57,707 bases of DNA. Source: Deltaproteobacteria bacterium. GTDB lineage: Bacteria; Desulfobacterota; Desulfuromonadia; Geobacterales; Pseudopelobacteraceae. The translations under genes and the position numbers were made by a program. Under the pieces are notes generated by a model. That model was given only the letters and a program-made list of their open reading frames with translations, was not told the origin of the DNA and ran no database searches. The number at the start of each line of letters is the position of its first letter. The first letter of the stretch is position 1. Shown in pieces: positions 207-53,848 of the stretch. The stretch covers positions 1 through 57,707 of the forward strand of contig JAJXYO010000044.1 of NCBI GenBank assembly GCA_021780495.1, read 5' to 3'.

Positions 207-221
207 GCAACTAACGTGCCA
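207..221 (-). promoter_or_regulatory. Sigma-54 -24/-12 promoter, module copy 1
   Basis: The minus strand reads TGGCACGTTAGTTGC, a perfect match to TGGCAC-N5-TTGC. It points at the csbD remnant at 138. An IHF-like motif lies 27 bp upstream and the UAS about 92 bp upstream. The promoter seems intact although its gene is not, so it may now transcribe into the insertion element. Confidence 0.85.
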
Positions 222-247
222 GAGCTGATCAGTGGATCCGTAACGTG

Positions 248-343
248 TAAGGGTCTGATTGTGCAGGTGAAATGTAATGAGGCCGGTTATCGTACAGCGT
301 CAACCGCCGGCGGAATCCGTCAGGTCTAACATAACCGCCGGAT
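248..343 (-). promoter_or_regulatory. IHF-like site and UAS, module copy 1
   Basis: The IHF-like motif AATCAGACCCTTA is at 260-248 on the minus strand. The UAS is at 313-343. It keeps the promoter-proximal arm (TGACGGATTC) and the GTTATGTTAGACC segment. It has lost about 12 bp containing the CCATATATGG-type centre found in other copies, so it may be impaired. The rest of 138-486 holds no gene that I can support. Confidence 0.65.
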
Positions 344-454
344 AGTGCGGGCTGTGTTGTGGCGAACAGGCTCCCCATCGATAGGCGCGGGGCAGGACGA
401 AGCTGCGGCCGGTACGGGACTTGCCGCTCCAGCCGCACCGTTTCCGTAGGCCAC

Positions 455-484
455 ACGATGCCAGATGTCTGTTACTGGCATCGT
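455..484 (-). terminator. Stem-loop directly after the 486-671 gene
   Basis: A perfect 10-bp inverted repeat, ACGATGCCAG / CTGGCATCGT, with a 10-nt loop begins two bases after the stop codon of the 486-671 gene. There is no T-tract, so it may be a weak terminator or an mRNA 3' end stabiliser for the long operon that ends here. Confidence 0.5.
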
Positions 485-485
485 T

Positions 486-671
486 CTAAGCGGTCGTAGA
501 CGTCAGCTTTTCGATATTTGCCAAAATGTCTGCGAACATCCGTGTGACGATATCTTTGGAATCGGTCGGCTGCGGACCGCTTTTCATGGACGTGGCGGCT
601 TCCCTGATGGTTGCGGCCACCGTCAGGTTCGATGCGATGATCATTCTGGCTTCTTTTGAGATTTCAAACAT
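486..671 (-). CDS. Small hypothetical protein (61 aa)
   Basis: I do not recognise this protein. The start at 671 (MFEISKEAR) is chosen because AAGGGAG precedes it at proper spacing; an upstream in-frame start lacks a ribosome binding site. The product is soluble, probably helical, with no signal peptide or membrane segment. It is the last gene of the minus-strand operon that includes the glucan synthase and lies 31 bp downstream of the 703-1209 gene. A stem-loop follows its stop codon. Confidence 0.6.
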   Translation of the reverse strand: MFEISKEARMIIASNLTVAATIREAATSMKSGPQPTDSKDIVTRMFADILANIEKLTSTTA

Positions 672-11719: not shown

Positions 11720-11734
11720 ACAACTAACGTGCCA
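11720..11734 (-). promoter_or_regulatory. Sigma-54 -24/-12 promoter, module copy 2
   Basis: The minus strand reads TGGCAC-GTTAG-TTGT. The -24 element is perfect; the -12 element has T for C at its last base, which should weaken it. It points at the VIT remnant, yihY and ndvB. The gene-free stretch 11502-11928 is explained by the leader and this module. Confidence 0.7.
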
Positions 11735-11761
11735 CCGAACCTGTGCAGGTGTCGTGAGTAT

Positions 11762-11868
11762 CGAGGCGCTGATTTTGCCGGCTCAGGTCGCAATGGCGTG
11801 CGTGAGGTGATCGGAAAGCCTTCGCCGTTATCCGTCACGCCTAACGTAACTGTTATATATGGCGGATT
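11762..11868 (-). promoter_or_regulatory. IHF-like site and UAS, module copy 2
   Basis: The IHF-like motif AATCAGCGCCTCG is at 11774-11762, 28 bp from the core. The UAS spans about 11830-11868 with both arms present: AATCCGCCATATATAACAG, then GTTACGTTAGGCGTGACGG on the minus strand. It lies close to the 3' end of the activator gene that starts at 13658. Confidence 0.75.
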
Positions 11869-11927: not shown

Positions 11928-13658
11928 TTACTGCCGTGCGATGCCGTATTTCCTCATCCGGGCGCGCAGGGTGCTGGCATTGAGGCCGAGGAGGAGCGCT
12001 GCCCCCTTTTGTCCCTCAACGCGCCAGCCGGTTTTCTGGAGCACCTGCAGGATATGGTCGCATTCCAGTTCGACCAGGGCTTTGACGACCTGCCCGCCCG
12101 GTTCGTCATCACCTGTGCCGGCCGTATCAAAGTGGTCCAGGACCTGCAGCGAGGTGCCCTGGCTGATGATGACGGCCCGCTCGATGATACTCTCCAGCTC
12201 GCGCACGTTGCCGGGCCAGTGGTATTCCTGCAGGGTGTTCAGGGTATCCTTTGAAACGCTCTCGATCCGCTTGCCGATTTTCTTGTTGAACTTGGCGACA
12301 AAATGATTGACGAGCAAGGGGATATCGTCCCGGCGCTGCCTCAGTGGCGGCATCGTGATCGGGAACACATTCAGCCGGTAAAACAGATCCTCGCGGAAGG
12401 TGCCCTTCTGGACCTCGGCCTTCAGATCCCGGTTGGTGGCCGCGATAATCCTGACATCGGTCTTGATGGTGCGGGGACTGCCCAGACGTTCGAACTCGCC
12501 ATCCTGAATCACCCGCAGCAACTTGCTTTGCAGCTCCAGCGGCATCTCGCCGATCTCATCCAGGAAGATGGTGCCGCCGTCGGCCAGCTCAAAGCGTCCG
12601 ATCTGGCGGGCGTCCGATCCGGTGAACGCACCCCGTTCCCGCCCGAACAGCTCGCTTTCCACCAGGCTGGCCGGCAGGGTCGTGCAGTTGACCGTTATCA
12701 GGGGCCGGGCCTTGCGGCTGCTGCTGCTATGGATGGCGCGGGCCACCAGCCCCTTGCCGGTGCCGGTTTCGCCCAGCAGCAGAATGGTAGCGTTCATGGG
12801 GGCAACCTGTTCGATCTGCGTAAATACCCGTAAAATCAGAGGGCTTTGGCCGATGATCTCGCCGAAGTTGTCGCGCTGGTCAACCTCCTGCTGCAGGTAG
12901 ATGTTCTCGGCCTGGAGCCGGTCTTGCAAACCTTTCAACTCGGCACACGTCAGGCTCAGCGCCTCCTCTGCCTTCTTGCGTTCCGCTATTTCCCGGGTGA
13001 GCTGCTTGTTCACCCGGGTCAACTCGCTGGTGCGCGCCGTCAGCTCTTTCGTCCGTTCTTGTACGGTCAGCTCCAGGTTGTCATGGGCCTTGAGCAGCTT
13101 GTCTTCCAGCTCTTTGCGGACGGTGATGTCAGCGAGTACGGTAAGGATAGATCCTTTCCCGTTTTCGACCGTGACCGGTACGCTCCTGAGTTGGCCATAT
13201 AACACCGTGCCGTTGCTCCTGGTGAGTTTGATTTCGCATCGCAGCAGGCCCTGTCGCTGCAGAACCAGGCTGAGGTGGCTGAAAAAAACCTCTCTCCCGT
13301 CTGCATCGGCAACCAACATGCTGAATGGTCTTCTGAGCAGCATTTCACGTTCAATTCCCATCATGTGCGCAGCGGTAAGATTTGCCTCCAGCACCACTCC
13401 GTCTTCATTAAAGGTAAAATAGGCGACGGGGGCAAAGTCATAGAGTTCTAAATATTTATTCCGCGACAGCTCCAGCTCTTTCTGGGCCTGCCGCAACTCA
13501 TCGTTCTGCATTTCCAGCTCAATTTGGTGAACCTCGAGTTCATGGACGAGTTTCCGGGACTCCTGCATGGCCCGAGGGGCGGGATACACACTCGCTTCTG
13601 AGTTGCTGTGTACGTTGTTGTCCGCGGATAACAGGCTTTTGTCTTTGCCGGTTTTCAT
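11928..13658 (-). CDS. Sigma-54-dependent activator with PAS input (activator 1)
   Basis: This 576-residue bacterial enhancer-binding protein has an N-terminal coiled coil (LVHELEVHQIELEMQN), a PAS domain near residues 75-190, a second coiled coil, a sigma-54 AAA+ domain and a FIS-type helix-turn-helix at the C-terminus (ALLLGLNASTLRARMRKYG). Walker A is GETGTGKG near residue 296 and Walker B is FLDEIGE. The loop that contacts sigma-54 is GAFTGS, not the usual GAFTGA. There is no receiver domain, so activity is probably set by a PAS ligand or a partner. The start at 13658 has a weak ribosome binding site; in-frame ATGs at 13745 and 13757 are alternatives. The AAA+ and DNA-binding DNA is nearly identical to activators 2 and 3, so all three probably bind the same UAS. 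Confidence 0.92.
   Translation of the reverse strand: MKTGKDKSLLSADNNVHSNSEASVYPAPRAMQESRKLVHELEVHQIELEMQNDELRQAQKELELSRNKYLELYDFAPVAYFTFNEDGVVLEANLTAAHMMGIEREMLLRRPFSMLVADADGREVFFSHLSLVLQRQGLLRCEIKLTRSNGTVLYGQLRSVPVTVENGKGSILTVLADITVRKELEDKLLKAHDNLELTVQERTKELTARTSELTRVNKQLTREIAERKKAEEALSLTCAELKGLQDRLQAENIYLQQEVDQRDNFGEIIGQSPLILRVFTQIEQVAPMNATILLLGETGTGKGLVARAIHSSSSRKARPLITVNCTTLPASLVESELFGRERGAFTGSDARQIGRFELADGGTIFLDEIGEMPLELQSKLLRVIQDGEFERLGSPRTIKTDVRIIAATNRDLKAEVQKGTFREDLFYRLNVFPITMPPLRQRRDDIPLLVNHFVAKFNKKIGKRIESVSKDTLNTLQEYHWPGNVRELESIIERAVIISQGTSLQVLDHFDTAGTGDDEPGGQVVKALVELECDHILQVLQKTGWRVEGQKGAALLLGLNASTLRARMRKYGIARQ
12150..12800 (-). repeat. Activator AAA+ repeat, copy A
   Basis: This coding segment of activator 1 is almost base-for-base identical to 40730-41380 and very similar to 47175-47830. 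In a 240-base stretch read side by side with copy B I saw about one difference. All copies share the same orientation. The identity exceeds what protein conservation requires, which suggests recent duplication or gene conversion. Confidence 0.85.
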
Positions 13659-13823
13659 GTTGAACGCTCTCGTGCCACATCTGACTGCCATGCCGGTGGC
13701 ATGGCAGATTTCCTGCTGCGAGCAGAGAATGATGAGTGACTTCATAACTTTTAACACACAATCGCTATAAATCCAGTTGCTAACAAATAATGCCGCATTC
13801 AGCGCCTAACTCACCACCGCAAC

Positions 13824-13930
13824 ATCCGCACAATATGACAGATTGTGCCATACCTGACGGCTTCCGCAGACGGCCTCCCGTTTTTGTTCCACGCGCTTGA
13901 TTCGTATTGCGCTTTATAATCGAATGGTTA
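13824..13930 (+). promoter_or_regulatory. UAS and IHF-like site for the UspA promoter
   Basis: The UAS at 13824-13864 reads ATCCGCACAATATGACAG, then ATTGTGCCATACCTGACGG and CTTC, full-length collinear with the other UAS copies. The IHF-like motif AATCGAATGGTTA is at 13918-13930. Both lie at the same distances from the core (about 94 and 27 bp) as in the minus-strand modules. Nothing else was recognised in 13659-14066. Confidence 0.75.
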
Positions 13931-13956
13931 CGTTCTCTGTTGCTGCGGAATTTCTC

Positions 13957-13971
13957 TGGCGCACTATTTGC
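13957..13971 (+). promoter_or_regulatory. Sigma-54 -24/-12 promoter for the UspA/ATPase operon
   Basis: The sequence TGGCGC-ACTAT-TTGC, followed by T, fits the consensus with one change in the -24 box. It lies 96 bp upstream of the ATG at 14067. The correctly spaced IHF-like site and UAS upstream support it. Confidence 0.8.
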
Positions 13972-20584: not shown

Positions 20585-20599
20585 GCAACTAGCATGCCA
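20585..20599 (-). promoter_or_regulatory. Sigma-54 -24/-12 promoter, module copy 3
   Basis: The minus strand reads TGGCAT-GCTAG-TTGC, one pyrimidine change from consensus, followed by G. It lies 66 bp upstream of the hydrolase ATG at 20519. Confidence 0.82.
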
Positions 20600-20625
20600 G
20601 AGAGCACGCACGGTTTCATGGTAAG

Positions 20626-20731
20626 CAATTGCCTGATTGTACGTGTGAAAATCCGATGGATGGATGTCAGCTGCAGGAAAAATCGTCAGAGGGAACTGTT
20701 ATATCTAACGTAACTGCTATATATGGCGGTT
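20626..20731. promoter_or_regulatory. IHF-like site and UAS, module copy 3
   Basis: On the minus strand the IHF-like motif AATCAGGCAATTG is at 20638-20626, exactly 27 bp from the core. The UAS is at about 20693-20731: the distal part (AACCGCCATATATAGCAG, GTTACGTTAG) is intact, while the proximal arm is eroded to AACAGTTC. The well-kept arm faces the plus-strand candidate promoter at 20815, so the UAS may serve both directions. Confidence 0.7.
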
Positions 20732-27192: not shown

Positions 27193-27195
27193 ACG

Positions 27196-31474: not shown

Positions 31475-31582
31475 CAACATACCGATTATATAGGATAAAG
31501 ATAGAGCGCGTCGTGCTGTGGAAAATATACTCCGCATGTGGAATCCGTCACCTGTAACGCTACTGCCATATATTGCGGATTG
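31475..31582 (-). promoter_or_regulatory. IHF-like site and UAS, module copy 5
   Basis: The IHF-like motif AATCGGTATGTTG is at 31487-31475, 27 bp from the core. The UAS at 31541-31582 reads AATCCGCAATATATGGCAG, then TAGCGTTACAGGTGACGG and ATTCC on the minus strand. Confidence 0.78.
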
Positions 31583-36520: not shown

Positions 36521-36535
36521 GCAACTAACATGCCA
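36521..36535 (-). promoter_or_regulatory. Sigma-54 -24/-12 promoter, module copy 6
   Basis: The minus strand reads TGGCAT-GTTAG-TTGC, followed by C. It lies 153 bp upstream of the csbD start at 36367. Confidence 0.85.
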
Positions 36536-36561
36536 GAGGATACCTGTGGAGATTTAGGGTG

Positions 36562-36669
36562 TAACAATTTGAATTTGCGGAATAAAAGAGCATAGGATTG
36601 TGCGGAGTGAATGCAGAGCCGCCAGCAGAAACCGTCAGGTTTGACATAACTGCCATATGTGGCGGATTG
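36562..36669 (-). promoter_or_regulatory. IHF-like site and UAS, module copy 6
   Basis: The IHF-like motif ATTCAAATTGTTA is at 36574-36562, one base from WATCAA-N4-TTR and 27 bp from the core. The UAS at 36628-36669 reads AATCCGCCACATATGGCAG, then TTATGTCAAACCTGACGG and TTTC on the minus strand. The rest of 36670-36813 shows no supported gene. Confidence 0.82.
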
Positions 36670-40275: not shown

Positions 40276-40290
40276 GCAACTAACATGCCA
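40276..40290 (-). promoter_or_regulatory. Sigma-54 -24/-12 promoter, module copy 7
   Basis: The minus strand reads TGGCAT-GTTAG-TTGC, followed by GA. It lies 78 bp upstream of the BTAD-like gene. Confidence 0.85.
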
Positions 40291-40316
40291 GAGGATGCCA
40301 GCGGGTGCGGGTGGTG

Positions 40317-40422
40317 TAACCTGCCGGTTATGTGGAATAAAAATGGGAAAAGGCGGCGATGGGAGATGGTAACCGTCAGCAGAACCCGTCATGTTTAACA
40401 TAACTGCAATATATGAAGGTTC
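40317..40422 (-). promoter_or_regulatory. IHF-like site and UAS, module copy 7
   Basis: The motif in the IHF position (AACCGGCAGGTTA, 40329-40317) is the most degenerate of the set but sits exactly 27 bp from the core. The UAS at 40383-40422 reads AACCTTCATATATTGCAG, then TTATGTTAAACATGACGG and GTTC on the minus strand. It lies 89 bp from the 3' end of activator 2. Confidence 0.72.
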
Positions 40423-40510: not shown

Positions 40511-42049
40511 TTATTGACGGCTGATGCCGTATTTCCGCATTCTGAAGCGAAGTGTGCTGGGATTGAGGCCGAGGAGGAGCGCCGCCCCCCTTTTCCCCTC
40601 GATGCGCCAGGCGGTCTTCTGGAGTGTCTGCAGGATCAGGTTGTGTTCCAGCCCGGCCAGGTCTTTGAAATCCTGTACCTCTGATTCCACATTCTCCCTG
40701 GATGTATCGAAACGGTCCAGGACCTGCAGCGAGGTGCCCTGGCTGATGATGACGGCCCGCTCGATGATACTCTCCAGCTCGCGCACGTTGCCGGGCCAGT
40801 GGTATTCCTGCAGGGTGTTCAGGGTATCCTTTGAAACGGTCTCGATCCGCTTGCCGATTTTCTTGTTGAACTTGGCGACAAAATGATTGACGAGCAAGGG
40901 GATATCGTCCCGGCGCTGCCTCAGTGGCGGCATCGTGATCGGGAACACATTCAGCCGGTAAAACAGATCCTCGCGGAAGGTGCCCTTCTGGACCTCGGCC
41001 TTCAAATCCCGGTTGGTGGCCGCGATAATCCTGACATCGGTCTTGATGGTGCGGGGACTGCCCAGACGTTCGAACTCGCCATCCTGAATCACCCGCAGCA
41101 ACTTGCATTGCAGCTCCAGCGGCATCTCACCGATCTCATCCAGGAAGATGGTGCCGCCGTCGGCCAGCTCAAAGCGTCCGATCTGGCGGGCGTCCGATCC
41201 GGTGTAAGCACCCCGTTCCCGCCCGAACAGCTCGCTTTCCACCAGGCTGGCCGGCAGGGTCGTGCAGTTGACCGTTATCAAGGGCCGGGCCTTGCGGCTG
41301 CTGCTGCTGTGGATGGCGCGGGCCACCACCCCCTTGCCGGTGCCGGTTTCGCCCAGCAGCAGAACGGTTGCGTTCATGGGGGCAACCTGATCCACGCGCA
41401 GGAACACATTGGTGAGGGCATTGCTTTGGCCGATGATATCGCCAAAGTTGTAGCGCTGGTCAACCTCCTGCTGCAGGTAGATGTTCTCGGCCTGGAGCCG
41501 GTCTTTCAACTGGTTGTTTTCCGCAAAGGCCGCCTGAAGCGACACTTCGGCCTTTTTGCGCTCTTCAATCTCCAGCGTCAGCTGCAGATTCGTCCCGGTC
41601 AGTTCTCTCGTCCGCTCGTGTACGGTCTGCTCCAGCTTGTCATGGGCATTCTGCAACTGCTCATTCAGCGATTTGACCCGCAGCAGCATCTTGATCCGGG
41701 CCAGCACTTCGGCTTTATCGAACGGTTTGGAGATGAAATCCTCGGCCCCGGCTTCAATCCCGCGGATGCGGTTTTCCATGTCTGCGTAGGAGGTGATCAT
41801 CACTACCGGGATTGTGCGATGCAGATCATCGGATTTGATCCGGCGACAGACCTCGAAGCCATCCATGCCCGGCATCATCACATCCAGAAGGCAGATATCG
41901 ATCCGTTCCGCCCGGATCTTCTCCAGTGCCTCCGGGCCATTAACCGCCGCTACCACCGTATAGCCACGGGGGGCGAGCATGGCCTCCAGCAGGCTGAGGT
42001 TGAGCGGTTCGTCATCCACACACAGGATGCGCGCCATATTGTTATTCAT
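40511..42049 (-). CDS. Sigma-54-dependent response regulator (activator 2)
   Basis: This 512-residue NtrC-like protein has an N-terminal receiver (phosphoacceptor Asp in CLLDVMMPGMDG near residue 54), a coiled-coil linker, an AAA+ domain with GETGTGKG near residue 233, and the C-terminal helix-turn-helix ALLLGLNPSTLRFRMRKYG. The sigma-54 contact loop reads GAYTGS instead of GAFTGA. The start overlaps the stop of the preceding response-regulator gene (ATGA at 42049), so kinase, single receiver and activator form one operon and probably one phosphorelay. Its recognition helix differs slightly from activators 1 and 3. Confidence 0.94.
   Translation of the reverse strand: MNNNMARILCVDDEPLNLSLLEAMLAPRGYTVVAAVNGPEALEKIRAERIDICLLDVMMPGMDGFEVCRRIKSDDLHRTIPVVMITSYADMENRIRGIEAGAEDFISKPFDKAEVLARIKMLLRVKSLNEQLQNAHDKLEQTVHERTRELTGTNLQLTLEIEERKKAEVSLQAAFAENNQLKDRLQAENIYLQQEVDQRYNFGDIIGQSNALTNVFLRVDQVAPMNATVLLLGETGTGKGVVARAIHSSSSRKARPLITVNCTTLPASLVESELFGRERGAYTGSDARQIGRFELADGGTIFLDEIGEMPLELQCKLLRVIQDGEFERLGSPRTIKTDVRIIAATNRDLKAEVQKGTFREDLFYRLNVFPITMPPLRQRRDDIPLLVNHFVAKFNKKIGKRIETVSKDTLNTLQEYHWPGNVRELESIIERAVIISQGTSLQVLDRFDTSRENVESEVQDFKDLAGLEHNLILQTLQKTAWRIEGKRGAALLLGLNPSTLRFRMRKYGISRQ
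40730..41380 (-). repeat. Activator AAA+ repeat, copy B
   Basis: Nearly identical DNA to 12150-12800 (activator 1) and very similar to 47175-47830 (activator 3), same orientation. Synonymous sites are conserved as well as codon meaning. Confidence 0.85.
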
Positions 42050-42423
42050 ACGTGTCCTTCCTCCAGCCATTGTTTTACCAGATTGGGCAGTTCCCGGGTG
42101 CTGATCGGTTTGGAAAGGTACCCGTCGAATCCGGCCGCCATGAATTTTTCCTGGTCGCCCCGCATGGCAAAAGAGGTCAGGGCGACGATCTTCAGTCCAC
42201 AGGTCGCCGGATCCCCCTTGAGGATGCCGCCGGCGGTCATGCCGTCCATTCCCGGCATCTGTATGTCCATCAGGATCAGGTCCGGCGCCAGCTCCCGGGC
42301 CAGGGCCACCCCTTCCCGTCCGTCGGCAGCTACCTCTACCTGGTAGCCGTGAAATCTCAGAATGTCGCGAAAAAGGCAGCGGTTATTCTCGTTGTCTTCA
42401 ACGATCAGTATTTTGTGTGACAT
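42046..42423 (-). CDS. Single-domain response regulator (DivK-like)
   Basis: This 125-residue receiver has no output domain. The acidic pair (EDNENNR), the phosphoacceptor in LILMDIQMPGMDG and the conserved Lys in YLSKPIS are all present. It resembles DivK/CheY-like relay proteins. The start at 42423 is preferred because GGGAG is nine bases upstream; the ATG at 42432 directly abuts that site. It lies 18 bp after the hybrid kinase and overlaps the activator start by four bases. Confidence 0.92.
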   Translation of the reverse strand: MSHKILIVEDNENNRCLFRDILRFHGYQVEVAADGREGVALARELAPDLILMDIQMPGMDGMTAGGILKGDPATCGLKIVALTSFAMRGDQEKFMAAGFDGYLSKPISTRELPNLVKQWLEEGHV

Positions 42424-42441
42424 CGTGCTCATCTCCCGGTC

Positions 42442-44937
42442 TTACTGTGGGCCAACGGCGCTTTCCACCAGACTCAAAAATTCATGGGTTGACAGGCTTC
42501 CCTTGCCCTCGATCCGCCAGACCTTTCCGGCCAACCGCTCCCGGTTGGCAGCCGACAGGTCCATTGAGGTCAATACCAGGATCGGTATATTCGCGGCTAT
42601 TTTCTCGTTTACCAAGCGGTCGGCGACGTCAAAACCGTTCATGACCGGCATCACCAGGTCAAGGACGATCAGGTCGGGAGAATCCCGTTGGGCCATCTCG
42701 ACACCCTGCATGCCGTTGCTCGCCCGCAGCGCTCGATAGCCTTTGCGCAGCAGGGCATTTTCCAGAGTAGCCAGCGTCAGCGGGTCGTCCTCGATGACCA
42801 GAACGGTATTGCCACTGCCGGGGACAACATCCGCACGCTTCGCGGGCGGCTGATTGCCGGCATCCTGTGAGAGCGGAATAGTGAAGCTGAACCTGCTGCC
42901 CGTGCCGAACGTGCTTTCCATCCAGATGCGGCCGCCGTGCAGTTCCACCAGCTGTCTGGTCAACGCCAGGCCGAGTCCGGTTCCTTCGAAGCCCTTGGTG
43001 TACACCGATTCCAGTTGGGTGAATGCCTGGAAGAGCTTGGGAATGTCATCTTCCCGGATGCCGATGCCGGTGTCCGCCACACTGATTTCGATAAAATCGC
43101 CGTCCCGCACAGCACTCACCTGTATCGTTCCATTCTTGGGGGTGAACTTGACCGCGTTTGAGATCAGGTTGAACAGGATCTGTTTCATTTTTCTCAGGTC
43201 TGCCGACAGGTGTACATCGGCTTCCGCAGCCAGATTCAGATGAAGTCCTACCCCGCCTTTCAGGGCTTTTTCCTTGAGCATCATCACGGAAGCGTCCAGT
43301 GATTCCCGCAGCAGGAACGAGCTCAGTTCCAGTTCCATCTTGCCCGATTCCACCTTGGAGAGGTCGAGGATGTCGTTGATCAGGGAGAGCAGGTGTCTGC
43401 CGCTGGTCAGTATATTATTGACGTATTCCTGTTGCTTTTCGTTGATCTGGCCGAACATCTGGTCTTGCAGCACCTCGGAAAAACCGATGACCGCATTGAG
43501 CGGGGTACGCAGTTCGTGGCTCATGTTGGCCAGAAAGTCGGATTTTGTGAGGTTGGTTTTTTCCGCCACCACCCGGGCGTTTTCCAGTTCGACGTTCTTT
43601 TCCTGCAGTACCTGATCCAGGCGCTTGCGCTCGGTAACGTCGCGCGCCGCAGCAAACACGCCCTGCAGTTTCCTGTCCCGGTCGTAGAAGGTGGTGGCAT
43701 TGAAGGATACCACCGTTTCTTTGCCATCTCTGGCGCGAGCGGTGAGTTCGTAGTTGGTGACCTTTTTCTCCCGCAGCACCTGTTTGATGCTCGTCTCGGC
43801 CTGAACCGGATCGGTGAAGTAGTTCTTGAAGGGCGCGCCGATCAGTTCATCGCGCGTACAGTCGGTCAGCACCTCCATCTGCTTGTTGACATCGGTGATG
43901 ATGCCGGCAGGATCGGTGGTCATGATCGCGTCGATGTTGGATTCGAACAGGGAGCGGGTATAGAACTGATGGTCGCGCAGCCGCTGGCTGAGCAGTTCCT
44001 GCTCCGCTTCGATCTGCTTGCGCGCCGTGTTGTCGGTGCCGATCAGCAGATAGCCGATGATGGCTTCCTGCTCGTCGCGCAGGGCCGTGACGGAGACGAC
44101 CGCCGGGAAGCGGCTGCCGTCCTTGCGGATGTAGGTCAGTTCGTAGATGTCCTCGATGCCGCGCGAGGCCTTGAAGACCAGCGCCTCGAAACCGGGCGTG
44201 ATCGGGGTTTCAAGCTCGATACTCAACTCTTGCGCGCGGGCAATGACCTCCTGCGGGTCGGAGATATCGGCCGGTGTGATCTGGTTCATGACCTCGGCGG
44301 CTGTGTAGCCCAGCATGCGTTCGGCGCCGACGTTGAAGATCTGGATGACCCCCTTGGCGTCGGTGGCGATGCTGGAGAAGTTGGCGCTGTTGAAGATCGC
44401 GCTCTGCAGTGCCCCGGCCTGGAGCAGGGCCTCTTCGGCCTGCTTGCGCGCCGTGTTGTCGGTGCCGATCAGCAGATAGCCGATGATGGCCTCCTGCTCG
44501 TCGCGCAGGGCCGTGACGGAGACGACCGCCGGGAAGCGGCTGCCGTCCTTGCGGATGTAGGTCAGTTCGTAGATATCCTCGATGCCGCGCGAGGCCTTGA
44601 AGACCAGTGCCTCGAAACCGGGCGTGATCGGGGTGCCGAGTTCGATGCTCAACTCTTGCGCGCGGGCAATGACCTCCTGCGGGTCGGAGATATCGGCCGG
44701 TGTGATCTGGTTCATGACCTCGGCGGCCGTGTAGCCCAGCATGCGTTCGGCGCCGACGTTGAAGATCTGGATGACCCCCTTGGCGTCGGTGGCGATACTG
44801 GAGAAGTTGGCGCTGTTAAAGATCGCGCTCTGCAGTGCCCCGGCCTGGAGCAGGGCGGCTTCGCTCCGGACCTCGGGTGTGGCGTTCCCCGGAGTGGTGG
44901 CGGGTGTGATCTGGTTCCTGTTCTTCTTGATTTCCAT
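42442..44937 (-). CDS. Hybrid histidine kinase with tandem near-identical PAS domains
   Basis: This 831-residue soluble sensor has PAS domains at about 29-170, 171-312 and 320-440, a HisKA domain with SHELRTPL near 474, an ATPase domain (N-box LFNLISNAVKF, G-boxes DTGIGI and GTGLGLAL) and a C-terminal receiver with phosphoacceptor Asp in LIVLDLVMP near 758. The first two PAS domains are 142-residue direct repeats that appear to differ at one residue (ELGTP versus ELETP). There is no membrane segment, so the signal is cytoplasmic. The operon continues into a single receiver and activator 2. Confidence 0.95.
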   Translation of the reverse strand: MEIKKNRNQITPATTPGNATPEVRSEAALLQAGALQSAIFNSANFSSIATDAKGVIQIFNVGAERMLGYTAAEVMNQITPADISDPQEVIARAQELSIELGTPITPGFEALVFKASRGIEDIYELTYIRKDGSRFPAVVSVTALRDEQEAIIGYLLIGTDNTARKQAEEALLQAGALQSAIFNSANFSSIATDAKGVIQIFNVGAERMLGYTAAEVMNQITPADISDPQEVIARAQELSIELETPITPGFEALVFKASRGIEDIYELTYIRKDGSRFPAVVSVTALRDEQEAIIGYLLIGTDNTARKQIEAEQELLSQRLRDHQFYTRSLFESNIDAIMTTDPAGIITDVNKQMEVLTDCTRDELIGAPFKNYFTDPVQAETSIKQVLREKKVTNYELTARARDGKETVVSFNATTFYDRDRKLQGVFAAARDVTERKRLDQVLQEKNVELENARVVAEKTNLTKSDFLANMSHELRTPLNAVIGFSEVLQDQMFGQINEKQQEYVNNILTSGRHLLSLINDILDLSKVESGKMELELSSFLLRESLDASVMMLKEKALKGGVGLHLNLAAEADVHLSADLRKMKQILFNLISNAVKFTPKNGTIQVSAVRDGDFIEISVADTGIGIREDDIPKLFQAFTQLESVYTKGFEGTGLGLALTRQLVELHGGRIWMESTFGTGSRFSFTIPLSQDAGNQPPAKRADVVPGSGNTVLVIEDDPLTLATLENALLRKGYRALRASNGMQGVEMAQRDSPDLIVLDLVMPVMNGFDVADRLVNEKIAANIPILVLTSMDLSAANRERLAGKVWRIEGKGSLSTHEFLSLVESAVGPQ
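44002..44853 (-). repeat. Tandem 426-bp PAS-coding repeat (2 units)
   Basis: Unit 1 is about 44428-44853 and unit 2 about 44002-44427. The DNA is nearly identical, including third codon positions, which indicates a recent tandem duplication. A more diverged third copy of the same PAS domain is in the kinase at 48506-50830 (about 49745-50165). Confidence 0.88.
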
Positions 44938-46955: not shown

Positions 46956-48509
46956 TTACTGCCGTGCGATGCCGTATTTCCTCATCCGGGCGCGCAGGGT
47001 GCTGGCGTTGAGGCCGAGGAGGAGCGCCGCCCCGTTTTTTCCTTCGATGCGCCAGCCGGTTTTCTGAAGCACCTGGAGAACGTGGTCGCGTTCCAGTTCG
47101 ACCAGGGCTTTAACCTCCTGCCCGGCCGGTTCGTCATCACCGCTGCCGGCCGTATCGAAGTGGTCCAGGACCTGCAGCGAGGTGCCCGGGGTGATGATGA
47201 CGGCCCGCTCGATGATACTCTCCAGTTCGCGCACGTTGCCGGGCCAGTGGTATTCCTGCAGGGTGTTCAGCGTATCCTTTGAAACGGTCTCGATCCGCTT
47301 GCCGATTTTCTTGTTGAACTTGGCGACAAAATGATTGACCAGCAGCGGGATATCGTCCCGGCGCAGCCTCAGTGGCGGCATCGTGATCGGGAACACATTC
47401 AGCCGGTAAAACAGATCCTCGCGGAAGGTGCCCTTCTGGACCTCGGCCTTCAGATCCCGGTTGGTGGCCGCGATGATCCTGACATCGGTCTTGATGGTGC
47501 GGGGACTGCCCAGGCGTTCGAACTCGCCATCCTGAATCACCCGCAACAACTTGCATTGCAGCTCCAATGGCATCTCGCCGATCTCATCCAGGAAGATGGT
47601 GCCGCCGTCGGCCAGCTCAAAGCGTCCGATCTGGCGGGCGTCCGATCCGGTGAACGCACCCCGTTCCCGCCCGAACAGCTCGCTTTCCACTAGGCTGGCC
47701 GGCAGGGTCGTGCAGTTGACCGTTATCAGGGGCCGGGCCTTGCGGCTGCTGCTGCTGTGGATGGCGCGGGCCACCACCCCCTTGCCGGTGCCGGTTTCGC
47801 CCAGCAGCAGAACGGTCGCGTTCATGGGGGCAACCTGCTCGACCTGGGAAAATACCTGCGAGAGGAGCTTGCTGTGGCCGATGACCTCGCCGAAGTTGTA
47901 GCGCTGGTCAACCTCCTGCTGCAGGTAGATGTTCTCGGCCTGGAGGCGGTCTTTCAACAGTTTTATTTCCGCATAGGTACTCTGGAGGGATGTCTCTGCC
48001 TTCGTGCGTTCCGCTATCTCCTGGGTAAGCCGCATATTGGTTGCAAGCAGCTCTCCCGAACGTTGCTGTACGGTCTGCTCCAGCTGATTGTTGTAGCTTT
48101 CAAGTGTCTTGTACAGCAGCCGTGTTTCCAGATTGTTGCGGATACGCAGCTTGACCTCGGCCAGATCAAACGGCTTGCTGACGAAATCTCTCGCGCCGGC
48201 TTGCAGTGCGCGCAGTTTGTGACCGGGCTGGGCCGTGATCACGAGGACCGGCAGGTAGTCGTTCGTTTCGCCCGCCTTGAGCCCTTCCATTACCTGGAAG
48301 CCGTCCAGGCCGGGCATCTGCAGGTCGAGCAGGATCAGGTCGTAGCAGTTTTTATGGTGCAGCGCGCAGACCTCCTCCGGATTCGTCGTTGAGGCTACGG
48401 AGGTGTAGCCGGCTTCACGCAGCATCTGCTCAAGCAGGGTGACATTGGTCTCCTGATCGTCAACGATCAGGATCGAGGCGTTAGAAATCTCGGTCGTGGT
48501 AATTATCAT
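46956..48509 (-). CDS. Sigma-54-dependent response regulator (activator 3)
   Basis: This 517-residue protein has an N-terminal receiver (phosphoacceptor in LILLDLQMPGLDG near residue 60), a coiled coil, an AAA+ domain (GETGTGKG near 235; GAFTGS contact loop) and the helix-turn-helix ALLLGLNASTLRARMRKYG, identical over this stretch to activator 1. Its start overlaps the stop of the hybrid kinase (ATGA at 48509), so it is probably the target of that kinase. Because the recognition helix matches activator 1, both should read the same UAS, one by phosphorylation and one by a PAS signal. Confidence 0.94.
   Translation of the reverse strand: MIITTTEISNASILIVDDQETNVTLLEQMLREAGYTSVASTTNPEEVCALHHKNCYDLILLDLQMPGLDGFQVMEGLKAGETNDYLPVLVITAQPGHKLRALQAGARDFVSKPFDLAEVKLRIRNNLETRLLYKTLESYNNQLEQTVQQRSGELLATNMRLTQEIAERTKAETSLQSTYAEIKLLKDRLQAENIYLQQEVDQRYNFGEVIGHSKLLSQVFSQVEQVAPMNATVLLLGETGTGKGVVARAIHSSSSRKARPLITVNCTTLPASLVESELFGRERGAFTGSDARQIGRFELADGGTIFLDEIGEMPLELQCKLLRVIQDGEFERLGSPRTIKTDVRIIAATNRDLKAEVQKGTFREDLFYRLNVFPITMPPLRLRRDDIPLLVNHFVAKFNKKIGKRIETVSKDTLNTLQEYHWPGNVRELESIIERAVIITPGTSLQVLDHFDTAGSGDDEPAGQEVKALVELERDHVLQVLQKTGWRIEGKNGAALLLGLNASTLRARMRKYGIARQ
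47175..47830 (-). repeat. Activator AAA+ repeat, copy C
   Basis: This is the third copy of the near-identical AAA+ coding segment, with more scattered substitutions than copies A and B but still far more alike than needed at protein level. Confidence 0.8.
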
Positions 48510-50830
48510 GGTTGTCCCTTGTTCGCTTTCGTTTTTGCGTAGTTCAGTGTCATGTCCAGCGTCGTCAGGAATTCATCGACCTTGATCGGCTTGGTGAGAT
48601 AACGGAAGAATCCGGCCTCCAACCCCTTCTCGATATCGCGTGGTATGGCATTGGCACTGAGGGCAACGATCGGGATGTGCGCCGTCAGCGGGTCTTCGGA
48701 CAAGATCTTCAGCGCATCTATGCCACTGATGCCGGGCAGATTGATGTCCATCAGGATCATATCCGGCTGGGAGGACCGGGCAACCTCGATGCCGCGGACG
48801 GCGTTGCGCGCTCCCAGAAAGCGGATATCGGGACGGCGGGCAATCAGATCCTCGACCAGCATCATATTGGCCGGATTGTCCTCAACGTAGAGCACCGAGT
48901 ACAGCTGCTTGACAGTGCTGTCCTGCACATCGGCGGCCGCCGTGATACCATTTGTCTGAGCGTTGATCTGCGGTTCGGCCGTCTGTTTCAGTTCGATCCA
49001 GAACACACTGCCTTCCCCGACCGTGCTTGACATGCCGATGCTGCCCTGCATCAACTCGATCAAGCGCTTGCATACCACCAGGCCGATGCCGGTGCCTTCT
49101 TCGGTGGTGCCCTTTTGTCCGAGACGGTTGAACGGTTGGAACAACTGCGTCAGCTGGTCGGGCGCCAGCCCCGCGCCGGAATCCCGAACGCTGATGCGAA
49201 CCGAATCCGGTGCGCTCAGAGCACAGGACACGACCACCGTTCCGCCCAGCCTGTTGTATTTTATCGCATTGGACAGCAGGTTGAGGATAACCTGCTTCAC
49301 CCGTGTCCGGTCGGCGTTGACAAAGCGGGGCGTTTCAAAAGGGGTAAAGGTGACACTGATATCGCGCTGCTGGGCCTGGGGCTCAACCATGGTCTCGCAC
49401 TCTTGCATGACCTCAGCCAGCGATACCGGTTCCAGCGACAGCGACAGCTTGCCGGACTCGATCAGCGCCAGGTCGAGGATTTCGTTGATCAGCTCCAGCA
49501 GATACCAGCCGGCCTTGAGAATCTGATCGATACTGCGTTTCTGGGAGGGCACCGGTTGAGGAACGCCGGATTCCAGGAGTTGGGCAAAACCGAGGATCGC
49601 GCCGAGCGGCGTGCGCAGTTCATGGCTCATGCTGGAGAGGAAATCCGATTTGGCGAGGTTGGCCTTATCCGCCAGGAGCATGGCGCTCTCCAGTTCGGCG
49701 TTCTTGTCCTGCAGGATCTGATCGAGGCGTGCCCGCTCGGCATCGACCTGTTTGCGCGCCGTGTTGTCGGTGCCGATCAGCAGATAGCCGATGATGGCAT
49801 TCTGGTCGTCGCGCAGGGCGGTGACCGACACGACCGCCGGGAAGCGGCTGCCGTCCTTGCGGATATAGGTCAGCTCGTAAATATCCTCGATCCCGCGCCG
49901 GGCCTTGAATACCAGGGCGTCAAATCCCGGTGTGATCCGGGTTTCGAGCTCGTCGCTGAGCGCCTTGGCCCGCGCAATCACCTCCACCGGATCGGAAATG
50001 TCGGCCGGCGTGATCAGGTTCATGACCTCGGCGGCGCTATATCCCAGCATCCGTTCCGCGCCGACGTTGAAGATCTGGATGACGCCATTGGCATCAGTGG
50101 CAATACTGGAGAAGTTGGCACTGTTGAAAATCGCCCGCTGCAGCGCTCCAGACTTGAGCAGCTCCTCTTCAGCCTTCTTGCGGTCGGTAATATCCTCCAT
50201 GGCCAGCAGGATGATGTGTGAGCCGACCTTTTCCCGGAAAATCTGGCGGGCGTTGAGCAGAATAATCTTGCGGCCGATACCGGGAAAATGGTGATCGACC
50301 TCGTAACTGTTGAGCACGGTATCGTGGGGCAGGATGTTCTCAATGAGTACCCGCAGCTGGGGAATGTCCCATTGCCGGTTACCGATTTCGTAGATGTACT
50401 GCCCGATGGTCTCTTGGGACGCGGCCTTGAAGGTGTCGTAGAAACTGTGGTTGGCGGTCAGGATTCTCAGGTCGGAATCCAGCACCACCAGCGGCTTGCG
50501 CACGGTTTCCACGATGTTCTCGGCATATTCCCGGGCATCCTGGATTTCCGTTCGCGAAAATTCAAGCTCAGCCTGAACCCGCACCAGTTCTTCGTTTTGC
50601 ATCTCCAGCTCGACCTGCTGATTCTCAAGCTCTTCCTGAGCCCGGCGCAGCTCGTTATTCTGCACCTCCATCTCGATCTGGTACAGCTCTAGTTCGTGGA
50701 CGAGCCTCTGGGTCGCTTCCTTGGTTCGGGGTGGCGATGATGCCGGGGCTGTCACCTGCAGGCGTTCTTCCGCCAGGCGGTGCAGTTCGAGTGCAGATTG
50801 GATCAGGTCGGATTGTTTGTCTTCTTGCAT
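48506..50830 (-). CDS. Hybrid histidine kinase with coiled-coil/PAS input
   Basis: This 774-residue cytoplasmic kinase opens with two coiled-coil blocks (LVHELELYQIEMEVQN; QQVELEMQNEELVRVQ) like those of activator 1 and the PAS-only protein. PAS domains follow at about 110-220 and 225-360. HisKA has SHELRTPL near residue 402, then an ATPase domain (NLLSNAIKY; GTGIGLVV) and a receiver with Asp in MILMDINLPG near 691. The second PAS is a relative of the tandem PAS units in the 42442-44937 kinase. The start at 50830 leaves a 55-bp gap from the CheB/CheR fusion; a TTG at 50902 would overlap it. Confidence 0.93.
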   Translation of the reverse strand: MQEDKQSDLIQSALELHRLAEERLQVTAPASSPPRTKEATQRLVHELELYQIEMEVQNNELRRAQEELENQQVELEMQNEELVRVQAELEFSRTEIQDAREYAENIVETVRKPLVVLDSDLRILTANHSFYDTFKAASQETIGQYIYEIGNRQWDIPQLRVLIENILPHDTVLNSYEVDHHFPGIGRKIILLNARQIFREKVGSHIILLAMEDITDRKKAEEELLKSGALQRAIFNSANFSSIATDANGVIQIFNVGAERMLGYSAAEVMNLITPADISDPVEVIARAKALSDELETRITPGFDALVFKARRGIEDIYELTYIRKDGSRFPAVVSVTALRDDQNAIIGYLLIGTDNTARKQVDAERARLDQILQDKNAELESAMLLADKANLAKSDFLSSMSHELRTPLGAILGFAQLLESGVPQPVPSQKRSIDQILKAGWYLLELINEILDLALIESGKLSLSLEPVSLAEVMQECETMVEPQAQQRDISVTFTPFETPRFVNADRTRVKQVILNLLSNAIKYNRLGGTVVVSCALSAPDSVRISVRDSGAGLAPDQLTQLFQPFNRLGQKGTTEEGTGIGLVVCKRLIELMQGSIGMSSTVGEGSVFWIELKQTAEPQINAQTNGITAAADVQDSTVKQLYSVLYVEDNPANMMLVEDLIARRPDIRFLGARNAVRGIEVARSSQPDMILMDINLPGISGIDALKILSEDPLTAHIPIVALSANAIPRDIEKGLEAGFFRYLTKPIKVDEFLTTLDMTLNYAKTKANKGQP

Positions 50831-50885
50831 GCAGAGCTCTTCTCTTGTGCCGGATTTGGTGAAAATAGGTGCGAAGATCGGTGTG

Positions 50886-53525
50886 CTAACCTTTACCCCC
50901 AAGCAGGGCTTTCAGCCGTGAAATCTCCTCGTGCTGTTCCAGCTCGACGCGCTTGAAGGTGGTGATGTTGGTAAAGGTGATGACGACTCCGCCGATGACG
51001 TCGTCAATGGTGCGGTAGGGCATGATGCGGACCGAATACCAACTCCCGCCTTTGGCAGCAACCTGTTTTTCCGAAAAGACCAGGGTCCGCACAACCTCCT
51101 GAGCGGCGTCTGCCAAATCGGGATACAGCAGGTCGGTCACGATCTCGGAAAGCGGACGCCCCACATCACCCTGTCTCAGCTTGAACAGTTTGTCGGCCCC
51201 GCTGGTGAAGCGCCGGATATGGAGATCGTTGTCGAGGAACACGGTGACTATTTCCGTGCTGTTGAGCAGGTTCCGCATGTCGTTGTTCATCCGTGACAGA
51301 TCGTTCATCTTGGATTGCTGCTCGGCGTTCACCGTCTGCAACTCTTCGTTGAGGGACTGCATCTCTTCCCGGGAGGTGGTCAGCTCTTCGTTGGTGGATT
51401 GCAGCTCCTCGTTGGTGGACTGCAACTCTTCATTAGTGGATTTGAGCTCTTCCTGTGAGGATTGCATCTCCTCGCGGGTCGTCTGGAGTTCTTCACGATA
51501 CTGGCGCAGCTCCTGTTCCAGCGCCTGGGACTTGGCGCTGCCGGTTGCCGCGCCCTTGGAGCGTCCCGCTGTATTCTGTCCCGGAGGCGCTGTCACGTCG
51601 GTGAAGACGATCAGCACCATGCCCTGCAAGGCCTCCGGCTCGTCGATCGGCCGGACCGTGATGTCGACCGTTTGTGCGCCGTCGGCCGTTCCGATCGGGA
51701 GGCCTTTGACGATAACCGTTTCTTTGTGGCGGAGCGCTTTCTGGAAGGCGCTCCCCAGGTCGAAGCGGAGCCCTTCGCGGGCCATGGAGAATATACTCCA
51801 GTTGGCCTTGCCGGCTGCCGGCTCCAGATATTTACCGGTCCGTCCGTTGATATAGAGGATATCACCCTTGTCGTTGACCAGTACGGCCGGCGGTGAAAAG
51901 TGTTGCAGCAGCAGCTGGTCCGCGAGCGACTGGAGATTGACGGCGGGTTTCATGGTCGGTAACTCCTTGGTGCCCCATGACATGGCGGGGATAAACGTGG
52001 GTGGAAAAGCTATCGGTTCAGGCAGGGTCATGGCTTCGCGCCGCAGGAAGAGCCGGGACTTGACGCTCAGCGGAGCGAAGAGCGCGGTGAAGGAACCGAT
52101 GGACTCTGCGCTCCCCAAAAACAGGACACCGCCGGGGTTCAGGCTGTAGTGAAACAGCGGCATGAGCTTTTTCTGAAGGTCCGGCGTCAGATAGATCAGG
52201 AGGTTGCGACAGATGAGGATGTCCAGCTTGGTAAAGGGGGGGTCCATGATCAGGTTCTGGGTGGCAAAGGTCACCATCTCCCGGATCTCCTTGCCGACCC
52301 GGTACTGCTCATCTTCCTTGATAAAAAAACGCCGCAGCCGTTCGGGTGACACGTCAGCGGCAATGTTGGCCGGATAGACACCCTGGCGGGCCCGGTCGAT
52401 AGCATCACGGTCCAGGTCGGTAGCAAAGATCTGCAGCGAAAAACTCGCGTTGGGACGTGCCTGCTCCAGCATTTCCTTGAAGGACATGGCCAGCGAATAC
52501 GCCTCTTCGCCGGTCGAGCAACCGGCCGACCAGGCCCGGATAATTCCACCGGCCGTCCGTTTTTTCAGAAGGGCTGCAATGGCCTGTCGTTGCAGTTGTT
52601 CCCACGCCTCGGGATCGCGAAAAAAACTGGTAACGCCGATCAGGAGTTCTTTGAAGAGCAGTTCCACCTCCTGGGGATTCTCCTGCAAAAAACGGACATA
52701 GGAGGCGATCCTGTCGATCTGGTGAATGCTCATGCGACGTTCGATCCGGCGATAGACGGTGTTCTTCTTGTAGAGGGAGAAATCCTGGCCGGTGCGGGCG
52801 CGCAACAGGATCAGAATCTTTTCCAGTGCGCTTTGGTCCTTCTCCAGCAAGGTGAGCTCGGTTGTGGCGCTGGTGCGCGCGTGCAGCAGGAAGCCGACGA
52901 TTTTTGCGGGCAGCTGCTCGGCCGGGGCGATCAAGTCGGCCAGCCCGGCCTCGATCGCGCTTCTGGGCATGCTGTCATATTTGGCCGAGGCCGGCTCCTG
53001 CACCAGCGCCACTCCCATCTTTTCCTTGATGGCCCGCAGTCCCATGGTGCCGTCCGAGCCCATACCCGAGAGGATGACACCGATACTGAGCTCTTTCCGG
53101 TCCTCAGCCAGGGAACGGAGGAAAAAATCGATCGGCAGGCGCAGGCCGCGGGGGGCCGTCGGATCGAACAGGTGCAGTACGCCGTGCAGAATGGACATGT
53201 CCTTGTTGGGAGGGATCACGTAGACACAGTTCGGCTTGACCCGCATCCGGTCCCTGACCTGAAAGACCTCCAGCCCGGTGACCCGTCGGAGCAGTTCCGG
53301 CATGATCCCCTTGTGGGTAGGATCCAGGTGCTGGACGATGACAAAGGCCATGCCGCACGCTTCAGGCACATGCCGCAGAAACTGTTCCAGTGCTTCCAGT
53401 CCGCCTGCGGAGGCGCCTATGCCCACAATGGGGAAGGGCCGGCTCTCCCGTAGTGGCGGTATGTCCTTCTGCGCCGCGTTGGCCGGTTTTCTAGAACTTT
53501 TTGCCGGTTTTGTCTCTCTGGTCAT
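50886..53525 (-). CDS. CheB-CheR-PAS fusion protein (879 aa)
   Basis: The protein fuses a CheB methylesterase domain (about 30-215; GASAGG, QHLDP, GMGSDGT), a CheR methyltransferase domain (about 230-490; WSAGCSTGEEAYS SAM-binding motif), a PAS-like domain (about 535-640), a long coiled coil with NEELQST and NEEL repeats (about 660-735), and a C-terminal PAS (about 745-860). No chemoreceptor is in the window, so it probably adjusts or signals to the co-transcribed hybrid kinase rather than flagellar chemotaxis. It is first in the operon with the kinase and activator 3. Confidence 0.93.
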   Translation of the reverse strand: MTRETKPAKSSRKPANAAQKDIPPLRESRPFPIVGIGASAGGLEALEQFLRHVPEACGMAFVIVQHLDPTHKGIMPELLRRVTGLEVFQVRDRMRVKPNCVYVIPPNKDMSILHGVLHLFDPTAPRGLRLPIDFFLRSLAEDRKELSIGVILSGMGSDGTMGLRAIKEKMGVALVQEPASAKYDSMPRSAIEAGLADLIAPAEQLPAKIVGFLLHARTSATTELTLLEKDQSALEKILILLRARTGQDFSLYKKNTVYRRIERRMSIHQIDRIASYVRFLQENPQEVELLFKELLIGVTSFFRDPEAWEQLQRQAIAALLKKRTAGGIIRAWSAGCSTGEEAYSLAMSFKEMLEQARPNASFSLQIFATDLDRDAIDRARQGVYPANIAADVSPERLRRFFIKEDEQYRVGKEIREMVTFATQNLIMDPPFTKLDILICRNLLIYLTPDLQKKLMPLFHYSLNPGGVLFLGSAESIGSFTALFAPLSVKSRLFLRREAMTLPEPIAFPPTFIPAMSWGTKELPTMKPAVNLQSLADQLLLQHFSPPAVLVNDKGDILYINGRTGKYLEPAAGKANWSIFSMAREGLRFDLGSAFQKALRHKETVIVKGLPIGTADGAQTVDITVRPIDEPEALQGMVLIVFTDVTAPPGQNTAGRSKGAATGSAKSQALEQELRQYREELQTTREEMQSSQEELKSTNEELQSTNEELQSTNEELTTSREEMQSLNEELQTVNAEQQSKMNDLSRMNNDMRNLLNSTEIVTVFLDNDLHIRRFTSGADKLFKLRQGDVGRPLSEIVTDLLYPDLADAAQEVVRTLVFSEKQVAAKGGSWYSVRIMPYRTIDDVIGGVVITFTNITTFKRVELEQHEEISRLKALLGGKG

Positions 53526-53701
53526 ACGTATAGATATATCAGTATTTCATTAAATCTACTAAAAGTATTTTGGCAGCGAAAGTTACGGCTTCGGATGAGG
53601 CCTGAGGTTCCAAGAGCGCACAAATCTGTTTTTTGTGTACCCATGGACTGTCCGGCTGAAGTGGCATGAGCCGGATTTGCCCACCATTATCCACCAGCCC
53701 C

Positions 53702-53741
53702 CCCGTACCATATGGAAGTTCCACCACATGCTGAGGTCGAA
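53702..53741 (+). promoter_or_regulatory. Diverged UAS candidate upstream of the second DUF3494 gene
   Basis: CCGTACCATATGGAAGTT followed by a GCTGAGGTC element aligns with the UAS (CCGCCATATATGGCAGTT ... CCTGACGG). It ends about 93 bp before the core at 53834. It could also act on the divergent 53525 operon. The IHF position holds only AT-rich DNA (TTAATTAACGAATAATTG). Nothing else is supported in 53526-54031. Confidence 0.4.
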
Positions 53742-53833
53742 CGAATCCTCTCGTACTTTTCCGCATCCTCTTCTTGCGACCTAATGTAGCGTTAATTAAC
53801 GAATAATTGGCGATATCCGAATTTATCTGTTCT

Positions 53834-53848
53834 TGGCCGGTTCCTTGC
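53834..53848 (+). promoter_or_regulatory. Sigma-54 -24/-12 promoter candidate
   Basis: TGGCCG-GTTCC-TTGC has correct spacing with two changes in the -24 box. It lies 183 bp upstream of the ATG at 54032. Confidence 0.5.

Follow-up and report, generated by a model that had tools for sequence, protein, structure and literature searches.

General stress responses are usually run by dedicated sigma factors (sigma-S, sigma-B, EcfG). In Myxococcus xanthus, the sigma-54 activator NmpR is fed by a hybrid-kinase phosphorelay and serves operons that include a universal stress protein; it acts at dyad enhancers of the form GCGCA-N5-TGCGC, with 5–24 bp between paired sites, and oxygen is the proposed signal (PMC11841059). 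The RpoN regulon of Geobacter sulfurreducens comprises many sigma-54 promoters, and no viable rpoN deletion was obtained (Leang 2009, PMC2725144); according to the main text, stress genes were among those that changed, and the authors located no RpoN element for them. Repeated intergenic elements, some of them thought to be regulatory, are reported as multicopy sequences and predicted global-regulator sites from G. metallireducens (PMC2700814) and G. bemidjiensis (PMC2996986). A comparative study of the sigma-54 regulome of Desulfovibrio vulgaris describes enhancer sites, some of them for stress operons, with the largest fraction of promoters at 100 nt or less from the nearest activator site and some at more than 300 bp (PMC4641369). 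Paralogous sigma-54 activators that act together are found with the alternative nitrogenases of Azotobacter (PMC9542535). The present study concerns a three-part module that is repeated nine times in a stretch of 57,707 nt from a bacterium of the Geobacterales (contig JAJXYO010000044.1 of assembly GCA_021780495.1; this whole stretch is referred to as the window). The modules are best read as sigma-54 promoters of a protective regulon, predicted to be switched on by three activators encoded in the window, with a probability of about 0.77.

The core pattern TGGCNY-N5-TTGY occurs 12 times in the window, compared to a mean of 2.89 and a maximum of 8 in 100 shuffled sequences. An earlier note on this DNA, made from the sequence alone, had listed nine such cores, and all nine are among the 12 (Table 1). 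The other three (22650, 27639 and 56126) were set aside as cores only, having no dyad or IHF-like (integration host factor) box upstream when inspected by eye. All nine modules are confirmed as real, each with a -24/-12 core, an IHF-like box and a dyad upstream activating sequence (UAS). The best IHF-like box ends 26–27 bp before the core in every module and matches the consensus at 7–9 of 9 positions. In a search limited to 93–99 bp, an arm of the TGACGG type (TAACAG in module 4) ends 95–97 bp before the core in all nine; an unrestricted dyad search returned the same distance for seven modules and another register for modules 3 and 5, despite the TGACGG arms that both contain. The three parts are thus as first described, with small corrections to their measurements: the offsets had been put at 27–28 bp for the IHF-like motif and 92–96 bp for the dyad, and the dyad is about 34 bp long rather than about 40 bp. 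Modules 5 and 6 have one dyad in common, which is read in both directions.

To follow the module beyond the window, a sequence-only covariance model was made from the nine window modules and one further copy. The window and 82 fetched loci, which had been selected for modules or activators, gave 221 matches with an E-value of 0.01 or better, of which the best 150 were used. The consensus of sigma-54 -24/-12 elements is near TGGCACG-N4-TTGC. In the logo of 140 copies (the ten training copies left out), the alignment of which was built with the module model and is biased toward it, the dyad reads CCGtCATATATGGCaGTTATGTtAaAtaTGACGG, the IHF-like box AATCAg-N4-TTg and the core CTCTGGCACGtTAGTTGC, which, like the nine window cores, is of sigma-54 type. 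The best symmetry in this logo pairs CCGtCAT at positions 5–11 with aTGACGG at 32–38. There is also a shorter, 16 bp dyad with its centre at 12.5, and positions 46–51 form a third TGACGG arm, an architecture that would fit two or more adjoining activator dimers.

The spacing is rigid. The nine window dyads were used on their own to build a matrix, which was combined with a plain core consensus (up to two mismatches) and applied to 76 loci from other genomes. This placed 153 sigma-54 cores at 92–98 bp from a dyad and six at 85–87 bp, or about one helical turn less, with 0–2 at every other position. As the loci were pre-chosen for modules, a larger number of cores in the peak is expected, but not a sharper peak. 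A second matrix, from the 150 best copies and so trained on the copies that it then scans, found 205 dyads, and none in reversed sequence, with 154 of 167 cores at 92–98 bp. Sigma-54 promoters frequently, though not always, have an IHF-type site between enhancer and core. In 159 dyad-core pairs, the IHF consensus (8 of 9 positions or better) has 132 matches at 25–28 bp before the core, where shuffled spacers have 0.45; counting the whole spacer raises this to 139, versus 8.8 after shuffling and 10 in the opposite orientation. About 40 mirror-image core positions were discounted, as most of them arise when one palindromic dyad is read again on the opposite strand. Under strict thresholds, 153 of 166 distinct dyads serve one side, 3 serve both and 10 neither. 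At locus L007 (contig C68), the dyad is 13–14 bp further out by way of a 13 bp tandem duplication (1420–1445) between dyad and IHF box. That module fronts a 380 aa protein (L116, 10109–11251) which, judged by eye, is similar to ice-binding-like proteins, an example being that at 45579–46454 of the window.

Position and orientation are also those expected of promoters. Among the best 150 modules, 147 overlap called genes by no more than 20% (12% for random placement), the next gene is on the same strand in 139 of the 145 that have one (50% at random), and start codons lie a median of 99 bp beyond the core end. Genes were called with a purpose-written script that missed the 49 aa gene at 25737, and for this reason module 6 is counted among the six orientation exceptions. 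The earlier note had regarded the modules as promoters and not as a dispersed repeat, to be given up if a scan found them at random, inside genes and in no fixed orientation; the opposite was found, and the fixed spacing and the conservation of only three parts agree with promoters as well.

In the genome to which the window belongs, 14 matches were found at E < 1e-5, ten of which had trained the model. Nine are in the window, one is further along the same contig, and the others are on contigs C68 (one), C5 (two) and C39 (one). A scan of relatives, which had been proposed as a check, covered 57 genomes from the same genus, family and order, the own genome included. At E 0.01 or better, 36 of them have modules, with up to 46 copies in a genome, this maximum being from G013, which has a listed contamination of 6%. 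Module counts differ between scans, in which the best 150, 52, 15 or 10 candidates were scored for the own genome. Across the class, modules were detected at 1e-4 in 79 of 195 genomes and 35 of 68 genera. The phylum scan, which doubles as a false-positive control, detected them at 1e-5 in only 6 of 297 genomes, and just two of these (G436 and G479, with one and four strong modules) are outside the class, where transfer is possible. The regulon is larger than first stated, with a standard promoter that is class-wide; it had been called local, which is wrong, since five of the 14 own-genome copies are outside the window and many other genomes of the class carry the module. Presence is patchy: G071 has nine modules, G006 one, and G023 and G045 none. 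When relatives of activator 2 were followed in named genomes, modules at E up to 1 were present at only two of the best 80 loci, those of Geobacter sp. UBA6802 (L027) and Geomesophilobacter sediminis (L028; five matches in the fetched locus). This patchiness may be the reason that the regulon was missed in model strains.

The genes behind the modules resemble a general protective programme. Operon extents in the window were inferred from gene order, and the target of module 1 is off the contig end because the contig begins at base 1 of the window. Of the enzymes, the cardiolipin synthase scores above its cut-off, the PssA-like enzyme just at its cut-off, and the GH13 protein of GlgB/TreZ type below the cut-offs. 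The other targets include CsbD, BON/OsmY-like and UspA proteins, a P-type ATPase, an alpha/beta hydrolase, a Zn-alcohol dehydrogenase, DUF3309, BrkB/YihY-like, GH94 and PAS proteins, and small hydrophilic proteins. The targets of module 7 had been left unnamed in the earlier gene list. Across genomes, the best 150 modules are followed by 136 first genes forming 70 clusters. Among the 134 that were scanned (two very long ones, at L168 and L181, were left out), and counting the 25 commonest of 92 and of 487 families, CsbD occurs 11 times, BON eight, DUF3309 seven, PAS, OMP barrel and DUF4398 proteins four times each, and PEP-CTERM three times. Three first genes are themselves sigma-54 activators, which would mean feedback. 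A TreZ over its cut-off is behind a module at L128.

CsbD, UspA, OsmY-like BON, TreZ and small hydrophilic proteins are typical of sigma-S and sigma-B stress sets elsewhere. Such genes do lie behind the modules, and the description as a stress regulon is one given by gene content; joint control and a stress trigger are predicted. The programme would then comprise small hydrophilic and CsbD proteins, OsmY-like BON proteins, UspA, and glucan and glycogen/trehalose-type enzymes, together with phospholipid synthesis and small membrane proteins. The strongest alternative is that the regulon is real but serves remodelling of the envelope or surface, or life in biofilms. The OMP barrels (4/134), PEP-CTERM proteins (3/134), GH94 and cardiolipin synthase among the targets would suit it, while the stress-set types just named argue for general protection, and we consider the envelope alternative possible but the less probable of the two.

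The 183 aa protein behind module 9 (39646–40197), called a BTAD regulator in the earlier note, has no Pfam match; proteins of about this length and kind are the first gene in 8 of 136 cases (also at L124, L133, L136, L143, L158, L162 and L172), and it is possibly a second-tier regulator. A 514 aa protein at 56086–57630 contains 90 bp tandem repeats (56689–57228). Just beyond the window (L114, 2971–4515) is a protein of the same length with the same first 50 residues, and this second copy is followed by a weak module (L114, 4626–4771).

Three enhancer-binding proteins encoded in the window (Table 1) are the likely activators of the modules, the pairing being judged by co-occurrence and adjacency. 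They had been overlooked in the earlier note. All three carry the AAA+ sigma-54 interaction domain, the GAFTG-type loop (GAFTGS or GAYTGS) and the HTH_8 domain that mark bacterial enhancer-binding proteins, and the C-terminal HTH is similar in all of them. The hybrid kinase at 42442–44937 is the likely partner of activator 2, and that at 48506–50830 of activator 3, both judged by adjacency; the CheB-CheR-PAS fusion upstream of the latter likely belongs to the input pathway. The fusion adjoins the kinases, a lone CheB is situated behind module 6, and no other chemotaxis genes were seen among the window genes scanned. A STAS-like protein (46563–46868, just under the Pfam cut-off) is convergent to activator 3 at the regulator end of the island.

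Codon alignment of the three activator genes gave a DNA identity of 97–99% in the second half of the ATPase and 90–93% in the first half, and of only 39–51% in the N-terminal parts. Compared to their G001 orthologues, window paralogues 2 and 3 are 69–85% identical in every domain. The G013 paralogues repeat the pattern (ATPase 95–97%, N-terminal 38%). The simplest reading of near-identical ATPases in paralogues with divergent N-termini is recent gene conversion, which would have affected the ATPase in some genomes. The kinases also contain repeated DNA: two PAS regions within one kinase (44004–44303 and 44430–44729) are 96% identical, and 84% identical to 49738–50037 in the other kinase, so that sensor parts, like the activator ATPase, seem to have been copied between genes. 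Truncated activator copies in G003 were considered as mobile pieces and rejected, as they sit at contig ends.

Activators and modules occur together. Orthologues, defined by at least 457 bits and at least 61% identity, were found in 26 of 57 genomes; 14 weaker rows (404–422 bits) were left out, which places G022, G024, G040, G045, G046 and G053 among the genomes without an orthologue. Three or more modules are present in 24 of the 26 genomes with an orthologue and in 3 of the 31 without (Fisher p 1e-10, shared ancestry ignored). Using the best 150 modules, a module on the same strand follows within 100 bp of 15 out of 34 activator genes, compared to 63 of 1050 genes in module-bearing loci. The 34 genes are from 40 rows, of which L025, L026, L029 and three others that were partial or secondary had been dropped.

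Several observations weigh against promoters driven by this trio. Of 273 dyad matches (a palindrome, with both strands counted), 77 have no core between -400 and +500, and the match on C39 is limited to model positions 49–156 and lacks the dyad. The 34 activator genes stem from loci many of which were selected for modules or activators. G050 has a receiver-type orthologue (68%) and no module, G017 has an orthologue and a single module, and the receiver-type orthologues at L025, L026 and L029 have no module in the fetched flanks, as is the case for 78 of the 80 loci. Conversely, no orthologue was found in the assemblies of G033 (13 modules), G032 (8 modules; 83% complete) and G051 (3 modules). 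The uniformity of the ATPase is not general, as the G030 and G001 paralogues are only 79–83% alike in this domain. Lastly, with 34 sigma-54 activator matches in the genome, the dyad could be bound by another of them. The alternative that these are sigma-54 promoters whose dyad is recognised by a different activator or by a single member of the trio, with the others serving other promoters, draws on this number, on the modules of G033 and G032 and the orthologue of G050, and on the PAS-type activator being the best match for 16 of 37 non-window rows. The co-occurrence, the activator genes directly before modules and the similar HTH of all three stand against it, and it appears unlikely.

If the copies were a dispersed mobile repeat (MITE-like) with chance promoter-like words, similarity would extend over the whole element and orientation would be random. 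The number of copies in some genomes, and contigs that end near copies or activator genes (contigs C9 and C107 of G003, C62 of G030), might suggest such an element. Among the nine window modules, however, the core has a mean pairwise identity of 0.83, the dyad one of 0.62 and the IHF box one of 0.61, while the two spacers (0.40 and 0.42; shuffled 0.37 and 0.39) and the downstream flank (0.38; shuffled 0.34) are at the level of shuffled sequence. Conservation confined to three parts is what promoters, but not copies of a repeat, would be expected to show, and together with the intergenic position and constant orientation it rules out a mobile repeat as far as can be judged from DNA, leaving it a very small residual probability. 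A structured RNA leader or riboswitch is the least credible proposal, for although the conserved segment sits upstream of genes, its parts precede the predicted start site and match known DNA-protein motifs, and an Rfam scan gave one chance-level match, elsewhere in the window.

Table 1. Modules, their targets and candidate regulatory genes in the window.
Feature	Position (strand)	Parts, domains or context	Targets	Score or motif
Module 1	207..350 (-)	core 207-221; IHF-like box 248-260; dyad UAS 317-350		88.6 bits
Module 2	11720..11865 (-)	core 11720-11734; IHF-like box 11762-11774; UAS 11832-11865	11341-11679; BrkB/YihY-like 10423-11328; GH94 glucan enzyme 1244-10423	83.3 bits
Module 3	13827..13971 (+)	UAS 13827-13860; IHF-like box 13918-13930; core 13957-13971	UspA-type protein; P-type cation ATPase	79.2 bits
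Module 4	20585..20729 (-)	core 20585-20599; IHF-like box 20626-20638; UAS 20696-20729	alpha/beta hydrolase; GH13 (GlgB/TreZ-like)	87.6 bits
Module 5	25426..25570 (-)	core 25426-25440; IHF-like box 25467-25479; UAS 25537-25570	Zn-alcohol dehydrogenase; DUF3309	81.9 bits
Module 6	25537..25682 (+)	UAS 25537-25570; IHF-like box 25628-25640; core 25668-25682	49-aa hydrophilic protein (25737); further small genes; CheB-like gene 27196-27792	84.5 bits
Module 7	31434..31578 (-)	core 31434-31448; IHF-like box 31475-31487; UAS 31545-31578	PAS protein (30114-31133); AI-2E-type transporter; PssA-like enzyme	92.6 bits
Module 8	36521..36665 (-)	core 36521-36535; IHF-like box 36562-36574; UAS 36632-36665	CsbD; BON/OsmY-like protein; cardiolipin synthase	98.4 bits
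Module 9	40276..40419 (-)	core 40276-40290; IHF-like box 40317-40329 (weakest, 7 of 9); UAS 40386-40419	183-aa protein; 319-aa protein	90.6 bits
Enhancer-binding protein 1 (likely activator)	11928..13745 (-)	PAS + sigma-54 AAA+ + HTH_8		Sigma54_activat 1.6e-70; GAFTGS loop
Enhancer-binding protein 2 (likely activator)	40511..42049 (-)	receiver + sigma-54 AAA+ + HTH_8		Sigma54_activat 9.7e-70; GAYTGS loop
Stand-alone receiver	42046..42432 (-)	between kinase and activator 2		
Hybrid histidine kinase	42442..44937 (-)	3 PAS, HisKA, HATPase, receiver		
Enhancer-binding protein 3 (likely activator)	46956..48509 (-)	receiver + sigma-54 AAA+ + HTH_8		Sigma54_activat 1.3e-70; GAFTGS loop
Hybrid histidine kinase	48506..50830 (-)	4-bp overlap with activator 3		
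CheB-CheR-PAS fusion	50886..53525 (-)	upstream of kinase 48506..50830		

Under the preferred reading, of sigma-54 promoters driven by the window trio, the activators would bind the dyad, and IHF would bend the promoter DNA so that they reach RNA polymerase, giving transcription from the modules. The genome has one rpoN and eight matches of the IHF/HU family. The inputs would be a cytosolic PAS domain in activator 1 and, in activators 2 and 3, two receivers that are probably fed by the kinases. As the three differ in their inputs but have almost identical ATPases and resemble one another at the DNA-binding end, several signals may converge on one promoter set. A dedicated stress sigma factor is not indicated, the promoter sequence being of sigma-54 type. 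An RpoS-like frame (319–461 aa; RpoS model 1e-93 or better) is present in 51 of 57 genomes, although none is over the curated cut-off and some have an in-frame stop; the raw tally of 55 includes RpoD-length frames. None was found at 1e-60 in the window's own draft assembly. The proposal that RpoS is missing and sigma-54 replaces it is unsupported in view of the 51 genomes, and the programme would not be a substitute for a missing sigma-S. A further step is to see here a second, class-wide general stress response, run by sigma-54 from one enhancer-IHF-core promoter and by sister activators that have different sensors and an ATPase kept uniform by gene conversion. We give this even odds; if true, any of several signals would start the same programme, from dozens of promoter copies per genome at most. 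With so large and portable a regulon on sigma-54, Geobacter-type bacteria and others related to them would have their protection genes under tight, ATP-dependent control that is gated by signals. Targets in many genomes can be listed directly with the module model, and the three activators offer a natural case for testing how gene conversion lets one output be shared by several sensors.

The earlier note knew of no description of this regulon, and none of the module or regulon was found in a search of main texts of the open-licence literature, including PMC2725144, PMC2700814, PMC2996986, PMC11841059, PMC4641369, PMC7962754, PMC11109978 and PMC12316311. The main text on the G. sulfurreducens RpoN regulon has no CsbD, universal-stress or upstream-activating term, unlike what is described here (PMC2725144). 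The G. metallireducens site classes 1–4 (GTTGCTYN, TCTCCGTS, MTYCTGA and CCYTC repeats) do not match the module by eye, a comparison based on the consensus words of the main text and on supplementary legends (PMC2700814). The D. vulgaris promoters differ from the window modules in having no one fixed layout, and the main text of that study has no CsbD or universal-stress term (PMC4641369). The Azotobacter activators, in contrast to the window trio, serve nitrogen fixation, and gene conversion is not mentioned in the parts of that source consulted (PMC9542535). From the texts available, the nearest known system is the NmpR regulon of M. xanthus, with its NtrC-like regulator and phosphorelay (PMC11841059). 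In both systems, hybrid kinases and sigma-54 activators are found together with dyads, which in the window are predicted enhancers, and a universal stress protein is among the targets, those of the window being predicted ones; the window system differs in its dyad (CCGtCA...TGACGG, the sites being compared by eye), in its rigid spacing and in having three candidate activators.

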